Below, piece after piece: positions 51,190 to 64,000 of a DNA stretch of 64,000 bases. The first letter of the stretch is position 1, and each line of letters opens with the position of its first letter. Origin of the DNA: Candidatus Heimdallarchaeota archaeon. Its GTDB lineage: Archaea > Asgardarchaeota > Heimdallarchaeia > Heimdallarchaeales > Heimdallarchaeaceae. Location: the NCBI GenBank assembly GCA_021399345.1, contig JAAFKI010000182.1, forward strand, positions 1 through 64,000, in the 5' to 3' direction. A program made the position numbers and the translations under genes. The notes below the pieces were generated by a model. It saw only the letters and a list, made by a program, of their open reading frames with translations, ran no database searches and was not told where the DNA came from.

Positions 51190-51531
51190 TTATTTCTTTC
51201 CCATGAGCTTCTCTTGCAATTCTTTCACAGACGACATTAGTTTTTTTTCTCTATTTGTTAAAGAGGAAAGTCTAACATCAATTTTTTCTTGTTCTTCTGT
51301 AAGGTGATTTTTAACATCATCAACATTTGATTGGAACAACAATCTTCCTGCAGAACGATAAATTACTGCAGAAGGATCCATATCTTTCGTTTCTTTCAAT
51401 GCTATATCTACATCACGTTTTTCCAACTCTTGTTGTTGTAAATTCATTCGAATAGCTTCCAATTGCTGAACAAGTTGATTAAAACGTTGAACATCTTCCT
51501 GTTGCTCTGGTGTAATTTGTGGGGCTGCCAT
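51190..51531 (-). CDS. pfdB: Prefoldin subunit beta
   Basis: 113 residues: two long coiled-coil helices (about 10-50 and 70-112) flanking a beta hairpin with DPSAVIYRSAGRLLFQ (about 52-67), the standard prefoldin beta layout. It forms a jellyfish-shaped hexamer with two alpha subunits and carries unfolded proteins to the chaperonin. Here it lies 176 nt downstream of the actin gene on the same strand, with a T-run terminator between. DUF3194 follows after 43 nt. Confidence 0.95.
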   Translation of the reverse strand: MAAPQITPEQQEDVQRFNQLVQQLEAIRMNLQQQELEKRDVDIALKETKDMDPSAVIYRSAGRLLFQSNVDDVKNHLTEEQEKIDVRLSSLTNREKKLMSSVKELQEKLMGKK

Positions 51532-51707: not shown

Positions 51708-52844
51708 TTAGATACAGCGATAAACTGAGGTAGGACCAATTTCTCTATATTCTTTGCGGGTAACCCACAATTTAGCGAATGTTTTTAGAGAACTTAAAAT
51801 ACTACCACCAATCCAGACTGAATATCTTCTTTCAGGAGGTGCAATGATTTTAACTTCCATTGTCTCTGGGACAAGTTCAGTTAATTCCTTGTGCAAACGT
51901 TCCTTAAGACCTGGGAACATTGTTGAACCACCGGATAGAACAATATTGGCATAAAGATCTCTTCGGAGATCGACATCACAATTCTGGATGGATCTATAGA
52001 TTAATTCATCTAATGGGTTTTCTTCTGAACCTATAGCACCTGGATTAAAGCACAACTCGGGAGCCATGAAACGCTCGGCACCAATGGTTAATGTTTCACC
52101 ATCGGGTAATGTGTAAGTTTTTTCCATTCCAGATACCTTTTCTGCTAGTTTTAGTTCTTTTTCAGGATCTAAAGCTACGTAACAAAGGCGCTCTTTAATA
52201 TCACGGACAATTTCTCTTTCAGCACTGCTGGATAGAGAATAACCTCTTTGACGTAGAAGTCTTCTGAGGTAATCTGTAATATCTCGACCACCAATATCGG
52301 ATCTATGAATGGCATGGCTTATAGCGAAACCCTCGTAGACAGGGACAATGTGAGTAACCCCATCTCCAGAATCTACAACTATACCAGTTGTACGACCAGA
52401 AGCATAAAGTGATAGAATAGCCTGCATTGAGATATACATAGCAGGAACATTGAATGTATCAAACATTAATTCTGCCATTTTTTCTTTGTTTTGATTTTTG
52501 TTTAATGGAGGTTCAGTTAATAGAACAGGATGTTCGTTAGGATTGACTCTTAAATCATTGTAAAATGTATAATGCCAAATTCTCTCCATTGCATCCCAGT
52601 CTTGAACTTGTCCATGTTCGACAGGATAAACAAGTTTCAAAACACCACGGAGGTTAATTGCTTCCTCGCCTATGTAATACTCGCGGACATAGTGTTCAAC
52701 ATCAGTCATAATGATCTGATATTTTGGATAACCAATAATTGTTGGAAAAACACTTCTTGGTTGATCTTCGCCTGCAAAACCGTTCTTTGTAAAACCAGTA
52801 CCGTTATCTATAACCAGCGGTTTATTTTGAATCATCTCTTCCAT
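51708..52844 (-). CDS. Asgard actin (lokiactin-type), close to eukaryotic actin
   Basis: 378 residues from the ATG at 52844, preceded by GTGAT; a GTG at 52853 is part of that motif. Actin signatures: phosphate-1 [14 protein letters not shown] (about 14-27), the catalytic Gln in [18 protein letters not shown], phosphate-2 [17 protein letters not shown] including the His that matches actin His161, the adenosine motif [11 protein letters not shown] and the C-terminal [15 protein letters not shown]. Large stretches align without gaps to eukaryotic actin, including the D-loop region and subdomain 4. It should form filaments that hydrolyse ATP. It is monocistronic and lies upstream of prefoldin beta. 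Confidence 0.97.
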
Positions 52845-52870
52845 AGATATCACTTTTACTTGTTTTTATT

Positions 52871-53069: not shown

Positions 53070-54062
53070 TTACAAACTACCATAGTAAAGCAGATTTTCC
53101 CTAATCTCTTTTTCGCTAAAACCTGCACTAATTCCGACAATAATTCTGATTATATCCATTGTCTCTGCGAGCTTCAGTTCAAAGAAACCAATTAATGCAT
53201 CCAGTTGCAGAACTGTTCCAAAACGAAATGTCCTTTTCCAGTAATCTAATAAGTATCTCTCAACTGCAAATTCCAAATCATGTAATGGCACTTCTTTAAC
53301 CCCAATATATTTAGAAAAGACTGTTCGATAAGGAGCATAGTTGTATATTTCCAGAACTTCTTGAATACTTGTTGCCTTCAATCCCTTTACAGTGAATTTA
53401 TTGGGTTGGATGAATCTATATGCAGGTATATTTAGAGCTATACAGCGACATAAAGCTAAGATATTTTTCATATTAACATATGTTTCATAATGTTTTGATA
53501 CTTTAGGCAGCATACTATAGATATGTTGATCTATTGCAGATTCTAGGGGTGTAAAACTTCCAGTTGTTTTAAATTCTTCATTTGCCAATTTAAGGTCTTC
53601 TCGCAAAGTCTGATTATTTTGATTAACAATTATCTCTTCAATTGACCTATTAAGTAATTTCGAATAATAATCGACTGAATAATCAGTAACTGGAACCAGA
53701 CGGGATAAAATCTCTTCATGCTTCATTTCTCTATTTATGCCTTGAAATATTATACGAAGATTTTCAGCGTGATATCGCTCACTATAATTTCTGATCTTCT
53801 TCTTAACTGTGGATCCTGATTGTTTGTAGAATTTAGTCAGTAATTCAGAATAAGAATTTTTAAGATTTCTAGCTACATCAGAAATTTGTGTTTCAAAATT
53901 AAGGTCTCCAATAATGCTGTCATAAGATGTTTGAGTAAAGGCCGCCCTCAATTCTTTAAGATTCTTTGAAGATAAGAGCAAACTTATTTGTGATTTTGTT
54001 AAGAAGTTACTAACAGCTCCATGGGCTCTACCTAGTAAATAACTTATATTTCCAAGTGACAT
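53070..54062 (-). CDS. atpC: A/V-type ATPase subunit C (V-ATPase d-like)
   Basis: 330 residues, nearly all helical, starting MSLGNISYLLGRAHGAVSNFL. The pattern of three related helical bundles (about 1-110, 110-220 and 220-330) with YHAENLRIIFQGI (about 97-109) and VERYLLDYW near the end matches archaeal subunit C, which links the central stalk to the membrane ring. The ATG is directly adjacent to the stop of the subunit I gene, preceded by GGGTGG, so translation is coupled. Confidence 0.93.
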   Translation of the reverse strand: MSLGNISYLLGRAHGAVSNFLTKSQISLLLSSKNLKELRAAFTQTSYDSIIGDLNFETQISDVARNLKNSYSELLTKFYKQSGSTVKKKIRNYSERYHAENLRIIFQGINREMKHEEILSRLVPVTDYSVDYYSKLLNRSIEEIIVNQNNQTLREDLKLANEEFKTTGSFTPLESAIDQHIYSMLPKVSKHYETYVNMKNILALCRCIALNIPAYRFIQPNKFTVKGLKATSIQEVLEIYNYAPYRTVFSKYIGVKEVPLHDLEFAVERYLLDYWKRTFRFGTVLQLDALIGFFELKLAETMDIIRIIVGISAGFSEKEIRENLLYYGSL

Positions 54063-57000
54063 TTAACCACCCTTTTGCTTGATAAAATTGATTGAAACAA
54101 GTTTCTCTTTTAGGGGAAGGAACTCTTTACCGTCTCCTGTATAGAATTTAGAGAACCATTCAACCCAGTGAAGCCTCAAAGTATTAAGGAATGATAATAG
54201 TCCTTCTAATGGTAATATTATGAATACTGCCAATAGAATTCCCACTACCCACCACACCCAAGAGATGCTAAGAGCTGAAGCATAATGACCATGTATCAAT
54301 CCTCCTGCAAAGTGTGACAAATCAATATGTGCTACGTCTAGGAATGCTCCTGAAAATGTTGATACTCTTGCAACTAAATCCACTCCAGTTAAAGTGAATG
54401 GCAATCCACTTAAGATTGCATGAACAAGTAAGAGTGCCATAATTCGGCTGAATGAAAGTGTGTTTGATATGAGTGCGATAATGTGATCAATTGCATCCAT
54501 AATTCCATCAGATTTGGCATGAATATACTCTAATACAAACAATACAGGGACTAGCCCTATCAGATATACAAATGCAGATGGTAACTGTTTAAGCGTAAAA
54601 TGAAATGCATGCCAATATATTCCATTCACTCCTACAATTATATTATAAAGTATAGCAAAGACCCCTACATAAACTACAGATAATGAAAGAGGAGCGCCCC
54701 AAGATGCGAATCCGTGACCATATCTCATGTTTTGATATACTTTCAATAATATTCCTAACTGAATCATTAGAAATCCTATTATTAGAGCAACAATTAGGAA
54801 TAGTTTTGTCTCATGTAATGGATTGATTATTGGTATCCAATTAATTCCTATCTTGCGCATCAATTCTGGTATGAGATGTTCGTCTCCTAGTAATGATCCA
54901 AAGAAGAACCCAAATATCGTTGAAGAAAAACCGCAGAAAAGAAGTAGTTCCGCACCAGAATAAAGATATCCTGTCATTGATTCATCTGGTTCAATTTTAT
55001 TCTTCTTTTTCCTATATAACAAGAATCCAGCTATCAGTGACAATAAAATTCCGTGTCCAATATCTGCAAACATGATGCCGAATAAAAATGGAAATGTAAA
55101 CCTAACGATTGAATAAGGATCAACTTGGTTAGTGTTTGGATGTCCAATACCACCTACAATCCCTCTTACTGCCCCAAATACTTTTCCTCTTTTTGTTATG
55201 GCAGGGTTAACTAATGGAACATCAGGATTTTCAGTAATTTCCATCTTGAAAGATAAATTTTTCTTGCTTTCATTCAGTTGCTTTAAAACTGTTTTAGATA
55301 TCCACCCCCATAGAACTATTCTTCCTTCAGATATTTGACATAGTTCAATGGTGTTTAAGCGGTTGCTTTCAACATTAATTAGCTCTTCACAAGCAGTTAA
55401 TCTATTTATAGCCTGATTCTTAATTTCTAGAAGTTTTTCTTCGCTTTCCTTCAATTCTATTTCAATTTCTTTTAAAGTGTCTTTCAATGAAACCTTTCTT
55501 TCAACCAGAGATAAATCATAGTCTATTGCTTGGAAAGAATATTCATTTAAAACACGCAAGATTGAGTTTTCATACTCCTTTAAAGATAGAATTAAGATGT
55601 TCCTTTCATTAGAACCTGAATCTGTAGGCTCGGAATCCCAGAATACAAGATTATTATCGGTGACTTCATTCAAAAAGAATCTCACAGATTTAAGGTTGGA
55701 TTTAGGAACAACTCCCAAGTAAGTTACAGTTTGGAAACCACTTTGAAGTAAAACTGCATCAATACCTCTTTCTTTGAGACCTTCTTCAAAAGGTAGAGAT
55801 AATTTTACTTGGCTCTGTTTCTTCTGAATTTCTTTATAAGACTCAAAAGCTTTTGTGATTTTCTCCTCATTTTCGCGCAAGAAATTTTCTATGAATGCTT
55901 TTGAGTGATCATAATCATCAATAATTTCATATTTCTCAGTATTTTGTTCTTCTGTATCTTTTAATTTGAGCATATTTGACAATCGCTTAACTCTTGACAG
56001 ATACTGACTCAGTTCTTGTCTCAAACTATTAACTTTCTCTAGAGTACTTGCATCTAATGATCCAATTTTCACTGGATGAACTGAGTTAAGAGAGTACAAA
56101 TGAGAAATGAATTGACGAGATGATTCCTCTGGACTCTCTAATCTCACAAATAGTGCTTTTTTTGCAAAAAGAAATCCTTCTCCACCTTCTCCAGTTTGTG
56201 GGAGGTGAGGTATATAGCTGTCTATTTTGCTTTCTTCCTTATCAAATTGCTCTTTAACTAGTAATTCTTGCTCAACATCTCTTTCTTTTTTACGAGATAA
56301 CGGAACATCTTCCAATATCACTATGTTACTATCTAATTGTAAAGAATTAATATTTTCAAAAAAAATGCTGTAGTTTTTTGATGTAACCCAACCCCATAAA
56401 GTAAAGTTTTTTGATGTAGTACGACCTCTTTCTTCCAGTGTTAGAGTTTTGTGAGTTGCTTTTATGAGCGTTAGATGGTACCTAATTTTTTCTGATAGTT
56501 CAGTAGAGAATTGTCTAATATCATCTTCAATTTTTTCTATATCTTGATTTACTTCAGAATAAAGTTCTTCTATTCTTGTTGTTTCTCTTATCTTTTCTAT
56601 GGATTTTAGAAGTTCAAGTTCAAATTCTGTTTCATCGAAATAATTATTACTGAGAATCTCTCCTATACGTTCTTTATAGTCATCTAAAGAAATACACAGC
56701 ATTACATTTTTTTCACTATTGTCTGTAGAAGAACTCCAGAAAAACATTTGACCAGCTGTAACTTCATTTAAGTAAAAGCGTATGATTTCTTCATATCCAC
56801 TAGGAATTTCTCCTAAAACAGTGAAAGTTCTTGAGCTTGAAGATAATAGGTCGATTGAAAATTCGTCATCCATATTGTTTTGGAATTGTTTCAAAGATGA
56901 AAGAATTCTGTTCTCTTTTTTCAACTTTTGTAATTCACTGGATTTTTTTATTATCTGATTTTCGTATTTTTCAAGAAAAACGTCTAAACTCTTCACTACT

Positions 57001-57266
57001 TCATTATGATTATTAATAGCAACTAAATCCTCTTCTTTTAATGATGAAAGGTCTTCCAATTGAATATTTAGAGCTTTGCTCAATCCCACTATTCTTTCCC
57101 ATCTGTCCTCCAAAATGTCTTTAGTTGCTTGTATTCTTGCTTGCTCTTTAGGACTTTGAGGGTCAACGATTATTTGTTCAAAGATATTTAGAGAAGATAT
57201 CTTTGTCAATAGTGTATTTGTATTTTTGACAGGTATCTGAACTTTTACTAGTTTAAACTTTGCCAT
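54063..57266 (-). CDS. atpI: A/V-type ATPase subunit I (a) with a duplicated cytosolic domain
   Basis: 1067 residues; archaeal subunit I is normally about 600-700. The membrane half is standard: FGIMFADIGHG (729-739) and LSFSRIMALLLVHA with the channel Arg941. The cytosolic half appears twice. Copy 1 spans about 1-325 with LGEIPSGYEEIIRFYLNEV (151-169) and LWGWVTSK (290-297). Copy 2 spans about 366-690 with LGVVPKSNLKSVRFFLNEV (517-535) and LWGWISK (652-658), at an offset of about 362-366 residues. Coiled-coil helices occur in both. The enzyme's stator arm could thus be doubled in length or have two stalk contacts. Subunit C follows directly. Confidence 0.93.
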   Translation of the reverse strand: MAKFKLVKVQIPVKNTNTLLTKISSLNIFEQIIVDPQSPKEQARIQATKDILEDRWERIVGLSKALNIQLEDLSSLKEEDLVAINNHNEVVKSLDVFLEKYENQIIKKSSELQKLKKENRILSSLKQFQNNMDDEFSIDLLSSSSRTFTVLGEIPSGYEEIIRFYLNEVTAGQMFFWSSSTDNSEKNVMLCISLDDYKERIGEILSNNYFDETEFELELLKSIEKIRETTRIEELYSEVNQDIEKIEDDIRQFSTELSEKIRYHLTLIKATHKTLTLEERGRTTSKNFTLWGWVTSKNYSIFFENINSLQLDSNIVILEDVPLSRKKERDVEQELLVKEQFDKEESKIDSYIPHLPQTGEGGEGFLFAKKALFVRLESPEESSRQFISHLYSLNSVHPVKIGSLDASTLEKVNSLRQELSQYLSRVKRLSNMLKLKDTEEQNTEKYEIIDDYDHSKAFIENFLRENEEKITKAFESYKEIQKKQSQVKLSLPFEEGLKERGIDAVLLQSGFQTVTYLGVVPKSNLKSVRFFLNEVTDNNLVFWDSEPTDSGSNERNILILSLKEYENSILRVLNEYSFQAIDYDLSLVERKVSLKDTLKEIEIELKESEEKLLEIKNQAINRLTACEELINVESNRLNTIELCQISEGRIVLWGWISKTVLKQLNESKKNLSFKMEITENPDVPLVNPAITKRGKVFGAVRGIVGGIGHPNTNQVDPYSIVRFTFPFLFGIMFADIGHGILLSLIAGFLLYRKKKNKIEPDESMTGYLYSGAELLLFCGFSSTIFGFFFGSLLGDEHLIPELMRKIGINWIPIINPLHETKLFLIVALIIGFLMIQLGILLKVYQNMRYGHGFASWGAPLSLSVVYVGVFAILYNIIVGVNGIYWHAFHFTLKQLPSAFVYLIGLVPVLFVLEYIHAKSDGIMDAIDHIIALISNTLSFSRIMALLLVHAILSGLPFTLTGVDLVARVSTFSGAFLDVAHIDLSHFAGGLIHGHYASALSISWVWWVVGILLAVFIILPLEGLLSFLNTLRLHWVEWFSKFYTGDGKEFLPLKEKLVSINFIKQKGG

Positions 57267-57483: not shown

Positions 57484-57828
57484 TTATTTCTTTCTAAATC
57501 TTCGCAATGCTTCCAATGCTGCCAACCCTAGGGAGGATAGAAACACTAATGCTGTAATGCCTGTTTCGGTTGGGAAATGAGTCACTAATACTGTATACCC
57601 TGCATCCTCGACATAACTAATAGCTAAATCTAAATCGTAGTAGTATAGTTCAAGTGAATCATCGTAACCAACTACAGAATCAGGAATTGCTGTTGTAGCT
57701 GGAGCACCGAGTCCATCTAGAATTTGATCAACAATGACTTCACGTGGGCACGCATGACTTATAGCTTTGCGTAGATATTTGGCTGCTAAAGGAGTACCAA
57801 GCGGAGTCAAGGGAAAATTATTGATCAA
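57484..57828 (-). pseudogene. Fragment of an oligopeptide-binding (SBP_bac_5) protein with C-terminal anchor
   Basis: The readable part is about 114 residues from a TTG. YLRKAISHACPREVIVDQILDG and YYYDLDLAISYVEDAGY correspond to the late part of SBP family 5 proteins (vRxAixxAxDRxxIv and yDxxkAxxLLxxAGy). A C-terminal helix GITALVFLSSLGLAAL with RRFRKK looks like a cell-surface anchor. The full protein should have about 500 or more residues; no upstream signal peptide or N-terminal domain is present, and a stop precedes within 40 nt. Most likely a decayed remnant of a peptide transporter gene. A living small membrane protein is the alternative. Confidence 0.65.
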
Positions 57829-57936: not shown

Positions 57937-58323
57937 TTAAGATCCTGCTAACACTTCTATTGCTTCTGAAACATATCTTTTGATTACTTGCATAGCTAAA
58001 CCAACATTATGCAAATCTCTACTAGCACCAATCAAAATATATTCATCAGCACTTGCTAGTATTGTAAATCCTTCTTCACCACGAATTAAAACTTGCTCTA
58101 AATCTCCGTGTGCCAGATTTCCACTTACCATTTTTCCAGTTGATAATATTGCAGATGAGACCGCACTCAAGAGATCTGGATCTGTCCCCTTTTCAGAGAA
58201 GAAAGCAACTTTTATTCCTTCTGCATTAACAACTGCTAATGCTTCCAAATCACACCCTAACGAGATTTGTTTTAATATTCTTACTAATTGTTTTTTTTGT
58301 GATGCTGATAAATCAATAGACAT
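57937..58323 (-). CDS. Roadblock/LC7 domain protein
   Basis: 128 residues consisting of a single Roadblock/LC7 fold: helix LVRILKQISLG, strand pair LEALAVVNAEGIKVAFF (about 27-43), helix DLLSAVSSAILSTGKMVSG (about 49-67), strands LEQVLIRGEEGFTILASA and YILIGASRD, then a long final helix. Such proteins (MglB-like) form dimers and bind small Ras-like GTPases; Asgard genomes hold many. No GTPase gene lies in the window. It stands alone between the transporter fragment and the divergent apgM. Confidence 0.93.
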   Translation of the reverse strand: MSIDLSASQKKQLVRILKQISLGCDLEALAVVNAEGIKVAFFSEKGTDPDLLSAVSSAILSTGKMVSGNLAHGDLEQVLIRGEEGFTILASADEYILIGASRDLHNVGLAMQVIKRYVSEAIEVLAGS

Positions 58324-63904: not shown

Positions 63905-64000
63905 TTAGAATACAAGTAGGATAGCTACTAGTAGACCATAAATAGCCACAGCTTCAATCAACACTATGAAGAGAAAAGCTTTTCCGAAAACTTCAGGTTT
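63905..64000 (-). CDS. atpK: A/V-type ATPase proteolipid subunit K, C-terminal end (partial)
   Basis: Thirty-one codons and a TAA are visible at the right edge: a loop KPEVFGKAF, then one hydrophobic helix LFIVLIEAVAIYGLLVAILLVF. The Glu in VLIEAVAIYGL is the proton- or sodium-binding carboxylate of c-ring subunits, and this helix sequence is characteristic of V/A-type subunit K. The preceding hairpin helix lies outside the window. The gene is encoded 7 kb from the I-C pair. Confidence 0.88.
   Translation of the reverse strand, partial: KPEVFGKAFLFIVLIEAVAIYGLLVAILLVF

Follow-up and report, generated by a model that had tools for sequence, protein, structure and literature searches.

Rotary ATPases fall into classes by how many peripheral stalks they have: one in F-type, two in A-type and three in V-type enzymes. 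In the strict sense, the peripheral stalks are the EG dimers. Ordinary members of the V_ATPase_I family carry exactly one N-terminal cytosolic domain. In archaeal and bacterial subunit I, as known from Thermus thermophilus (6r0z_N) and Enterococcus hirae (8wci_P), one dumb-bell domain is combined with a membrane half that contains essential arginines. The collar of A-ATPases consists of subunit I alone and supports two stalks; the eukaryotic collar is composed of a, C and H and supports three (PMC6131620). The two ends of aNT are in contact with one stalk each (PMC10313074). For the subunits C and H no functional homologue exists in A-type enzymes (PMC3569449). A duplicated subunit I or a was not found described in the literature searched, which consisted mostly of papers accessible without subscription.

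The window analysed here, a stretch of 64,000 nucleotides from Candidatus Heimdallarchaeota archaeon, encodes a subunit I with a second cytosolic domain in front of the usual one. The following features were assigned:

54063 to 57266, minus strand: V/A-ATPase subunit I (a) with two N-terminal cytosolic domains; ORF of 1067 aa with ATG start (Pfam V_ATPase_I, E 8.9e-41)
56292 to 57266, minus strand: R1, the extra N-terminal cytosolic domain, residues about 1-325 (match to R2, own model, Foldseek, dN/dS)
56172 to 56291, minus strand: linker between R1 and R2, residues 326-365 (model confidence low at 329-347)
55197 to 56171, minus strand: R2, the N-terminal cytosolic domain in canonical position, residues 366-690 (single-domain relatives align to R2 plus membrane half)
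54063 to 55196, minus strand: membrane half in one copy, residues 691-1067, with Arg941 and Arg1031 (alignment)
53070 to 54062, minus strand: subunit C/AC39 (eukaryotic d) of the same ATPase, 330 aa, directly downstream of subunit I (Pfam vATP-synt_AC39, E 2e-30)
63908 to 64000, minus strand: 3' part of the gene for the c (K) subunit, 99 aa with a single hairpin (ATP-synt_C, E 3.2e-19)

A length of 1067 residues and the position 54063-57266 had been given by an earlier sequence-only reading of this DNA, and the same ORF was found on the minus strand. Against PF01496 the protein scored 140.1 bits, with a curated cut-off of 30.7. The single intact membrane half with Arg941, also part of that reading, was recovered: it is present in one copy, Arg941 and Arg1031 show almost no variation in a 25-row alignment, and its fold matches Vo of Thermus and yeast. 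R2 provides the two-lobed cytosolic domain ahead of the membrane half. Other rotary ATPase subunits are encoded along with it (C adjoining, c about 6 kb away, the rest on other contigs). With two N-terminal domains instead of the one of ordinary members, the protein is a variant by addition. It is a variant form of the known V_ATPase_I family, not a new family.

The tandem duplication of the cytosolic domain, proposed from the letters of the DNA, was borne out by self-alignment, profile comparison and structure model alike. Residues 6-323 align to residues 373-685 with 23% identity (BLASTP E 5e-17). The Smith-Waterman score of R1 against R2 was 245, compared with 50 +/- 8.7 and a maximum of 86 for 500 shuffles. 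Profile-profile comparison of the R1 family with the R2 family gave a probability of 99.95% and an E of 6e-38 over 316 columns. All three pairs of landmarks named beforehand are present at the expected residues (151/517, 162-170/528-536 and 290/652). The AlphaFold model of the full protein, based on the 25-row alignment, reached a mean pLDDT of 77.8 and a pTM of 0.60. It predicts the same order of elements for R1 and R2: strand-helix-strand, a long helix out, strand-helix-strand-strand-helix, a long helix back, strand-helix-strand. A lack of superposition between the halves, suggested earlier as an argument against duplication, is not what the model predicts, since the order of secondary structure points to a common fold. 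Residues 329-347 of the linker were modelled with very low confidence, and at a pTM of 0.60 the predicted orientation of R1 relative to R2 is untrustworthy. R1 and R2 are two complete copies of the cytosolic N-terminal domain of subunit I. The doubled part is the collar arm that holds the EG dimers, rather than the peripheral stalk itself.

Taken alone, R1 has no Pfam match. A search of the R1 profile against PDB by sequence returned no real relative, just coiled-coil-like chance matches. The model of R1 alone (pLDDT 83.6) was compared with PDB by Foldseek. N-terminal domains of subunit a/I ranked on top, with a best E of 2.6e-13 and TM up to 0.59. Ranked below were two entries of eukaryotic subunit C, 1u7l (E 4.2e-7) and chain G of 7uzf (E 6.4e-8), which we take to be the V-ATPase subunit C. 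These matches are those of the 3Di alphabet, and their TM-scores are only 0.22-0.30 (1u7l: 0.22). The comparison was made without an ordinary archaeal N-terminal domain as control, so the predicted likeness to subunit C may be a property of the whole N-domain fold. A separate gene for a eukaryotic-type subunit C was also considered; with V-ATPase_C (PF03223), six genomes were searched at E <= 1 and none gave a match, G000 with its R1 being one of the six.

One gene with two N-terminal domains was detected with the N-domain profile in 18 of the 23 genomes of the family (G000-G005, G007-G011, G013, G017-G022; G000 is the genome of the window). In 16 of these 18 it is of full length and uninterrupted. 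The gene of G021 is truncated by a contig end downstream of both repeats, and the gene of G013 contains one in-frame TAA. The remaining five genomes hold fragments or the paralogue only; hence, no counterexample is known within the family. Among 57 relatives searched, members of the same genus gave full-length homologues with 1043-1070 aa. The homologue in G022, a genome of the same family in one contig, has 1061 aa. Among the frames listed for 228 Asgard genomes, those of subunit I with more than 1000 aa belong to this family only, and the longest outside it has 867 aa. Two N-terminal domains in one ATPase gene were found nowhere outside the family among the matches listed for these 228 genomes, in agreement with the counts per genome. 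Genes for a free-standing second N-terminal domain were not seen in other Asgards with the N-domain profile; short frames with this domain, such as one of 395 aa at a contig end in G057, look like cut genes. Non-Asgard loci of subunit I, where examined, were of ordinary length. In two other Asgard families, f12 and f13 (G072-G079), subunit I is 815-867 aa long, a eukaryote-like length, and has one N-terminal domain.

The genome of the window is a fragmented MAG and the relative G013 has a stop codon in the doubled gene; both would fit an assembly chimera or a pseudogene. Against this stand the full-length, unbroken genes of fifteen other genomes, one of which is a single contig, and dN/dS values well under 1. 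For R1 values of 0.15-0.30 were obtained, for R2 0.05-0.19 and for the membrane half 0.04-0.14, with some synonymous distances near saturation. Judged by these ratios, R1 is evidently under purifying selection. The duplication is found in many independent assemblies of close relatives, where the sequence-only reading had asked for it, and an assembly chimera or a pseudogene has practically no probability left.

In the tree of N-terminal domains R1 is monophyletic (98/93), as is R2 (95/95). Together they are set apart at an SH-aLRT of 100 from 21 outgroup domains, which include single-domain relatives of the same order. Another source of R1 would be fusion with the N-terminal domain of the other subunit I in this genome, which is of ordinary form, without any internal duplication. 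When this long-branched paralogue was added to the tree, R1 was placed beside it with weak support (73/50), and a clade of R1 and R2 was neither rejected nor preferred (p-AU 0.40). However, the paralogue has a branch length of 3.0, so its attraction to R1 is likely. Of all groups of N-terminal domains tried in the profile comparison, R2 is nearest to R1; the match of R1 to the paralogue is weak (E 1e-4) compared with that to R2 (E 6e-38). Moreover, G022 possesses the duplication but not the paralogue. An origin by fusion is therefore largely refuted and we consider it very improbable. In the simplest reading, a single in-gene duplication occurred in the stem of one Heimdallarchaeia-type Asgard family, before the split of the three genera sampled.

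The pair of genes for subunits I and C is retained in relatives. The c subunit gene lies about 6 kb from subunit I at the end of the window, and its 5' part extends past it (to about C123:64204). Next to it, just outside the window, two adjacent genes for Snf7-type ESCRT-III proteins were noticed (L047 1953-3180). The other subunit genes are scattered, with A, B, F and G on contig C115, E on C53 and D on C89. These were assigned to the enzyme with the doubled subunit I by elimination, because a further set of A, B, D, E, I, c and C genes forms a second operon, on contig C108 of the same genome. This operon (L005 4667-13498), missing from G022, encodes a complete rotary ATPase with a c subunit of 159 aa in double-hairpin form. 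Its subunit I of 687 aa is ordinary and belongs to the same family with the same membrane half; its single N-terminal domain is very divergent from R1 and R2.

In G022, G003 and G021 one A/B pair, one E and one D were found, and the doubled subunit I is the only subunit I. G022, a single contig of 92% completeness, is the strongest of these cases. By gene content, the doubled form must therefore serve as stator of the only ATPase found in these genomes. An intein is present in the catalytic A subunit of G022 (C1 about 1973689-1976500; L156 1030-3549, minus strand; frame of 1096 aa), where a segment ends with ...LPFTLHNT right before VSQHQLAKW at the P-loop.

Further genes lie close to the pair of I and C. 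An actin gene (51708-52853, minus strand; Pfam Actin E 1.7e-134) is also close to the pair in G001, G003 and G022. A prefoldin gene (51190-51531) and a roadblock gene (57937-58323) are located nearby. At 57484-57828 on the minus strand, only part of a gene for an oligopeptide ABC solute-binding protein (SBP_bac_5) is present. The gene seems to have decayed, since relatives have a full gene of 600-606 aa at this place (L051 7964-9781).

The two repeats differ in the residues retained. Compared with single-domain relatives, residues of the lobe cores are kept in both (G152/G518, E168/E534, T170/T536, W291/W653 and W293/W655). The residues A625, E628, E633 and R636 of the returning helix, together with P688, which lead to the membrane, are kept in R2 only. 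The (I)xVDP edge of the proximal lobe is better kept in R1 than in R2. Conservation within R1 peaks at residues 31-45 (QIIVDPQSPKEQARI) in the proximal lobe and at residues 151-165 (LGEIPSGYEEIIRFY) in the distal lobe. Among R1, linker, R2 and membrane half, the linker has the lowest mean identity. The pattern of retention suggests an ordinary, membrane-side position for R2 and, for R1, a free arm whose lobes still work.

As the best explanation, held tentatively, R2, attached to the membrane half, would perform the usual function of the collar, and R1 would be a second dumb-bell arm on a flexible linker of some 40 residues that ties it to R2. In an ordinary arm, the base of one EG stalk is held by each lobe; each lobe of R1 could likewise be a binding site, so that up to two sites would be added. 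R1 would then most likely anchor an additional EG stalk and take the role of eukaryotic subunit C in cis. That these Asgard ATPases have three or more EG stalks, with the extra ones held by R1, appears doubtful. The stalk number cannot be read from the genes. A third stalk might have shown itself by extra E genes; each ATPase was found to have a single E gene, a count that speaks neither for nor against a third EG. The earlier suggestion that a doubled arm changes the stalk geometry, or gives extra contacts to stalks or regulators, is plausible and the effect putative.

Instead of anchoring a stalk, R1 could be a docking or regulatory module, recruiting regulators, membranes or cytoskeleton. 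Eukaryotic subunit C is said to bind actin, a result credited to Vitavska et al. 2005 (cited in PMC8138766), and an actin gene lies near the doubled subunit I in G000, G001, G003 and G022; gene neighbourhood, however, is weak evidence. In eukaryotes, lipids, RAVE and ARNO bind to aNT, a regulatory hub (PMC10313074). On the other hand, both lobes of R1 have kept their core residues and their conservation peaks, as expected of a stalk-binding arm, and we regard a docking role as unlikely. Slightly less likely is an enzyme with two stalks only, in which R1 and R2 share the contacts of one arm or R1 stiffens the collar. The complementary loss of canonical residues in R1 and R2 would fit such a subdivided single job, as would the one E and one G/H gene per ATPase in the genome of the window. 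But the complete two-lobe folds predicted for both repeats go beyond what shared contacts of one arm would need. Anchoring of an extra stalk, docking and the two-stalk arrangement are not separable by sequence.

Asgard archaea are relatives of the ancestors of eukaryotes. The locus presents a covalently doubled collar arm, fixed in one Asgard family and the sole stator in some of its members, and thereby a natural case in which the enlargement of a two-stalk collar can be put to a direct test. The doubled arm may give the archaeal motor head an extra brace, which eukaryotic V-ATPases obtain by different means. If anchoring by R1 holds true, a three-stalk archaeal enzyme would have been reached by doubling the arm of subunit I in cis. 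It would parallel, or serve to model, the emergence of eukaryotic subunit C out of an arm of the subunit a type.

Beside archaeal and bacterial subunit I, R2 with the membrane half is a normal member; what differs is a second complete cytosolic domain fused in front, absent from the solved and searched relatives outside the family. With eukaryotic subunit a (Vph1, ATP6V0A) the protein shares fold and domain order from R2 onward. The eukaryotic subunit has one aNT, and separate subunits C and H complete the collar, whereas the doubled protein has two arms. The model of R1 matches eukaryotic subunit C (Vma5, 1u7l) by Foldseek at a low TM-score, and the role of an extra anchor is proposed for R1, but no sequence similarity was found between the two. 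Vma5 is a separate, reversibly released subunit; R1, in contrast, is a covalent part of subunit I.
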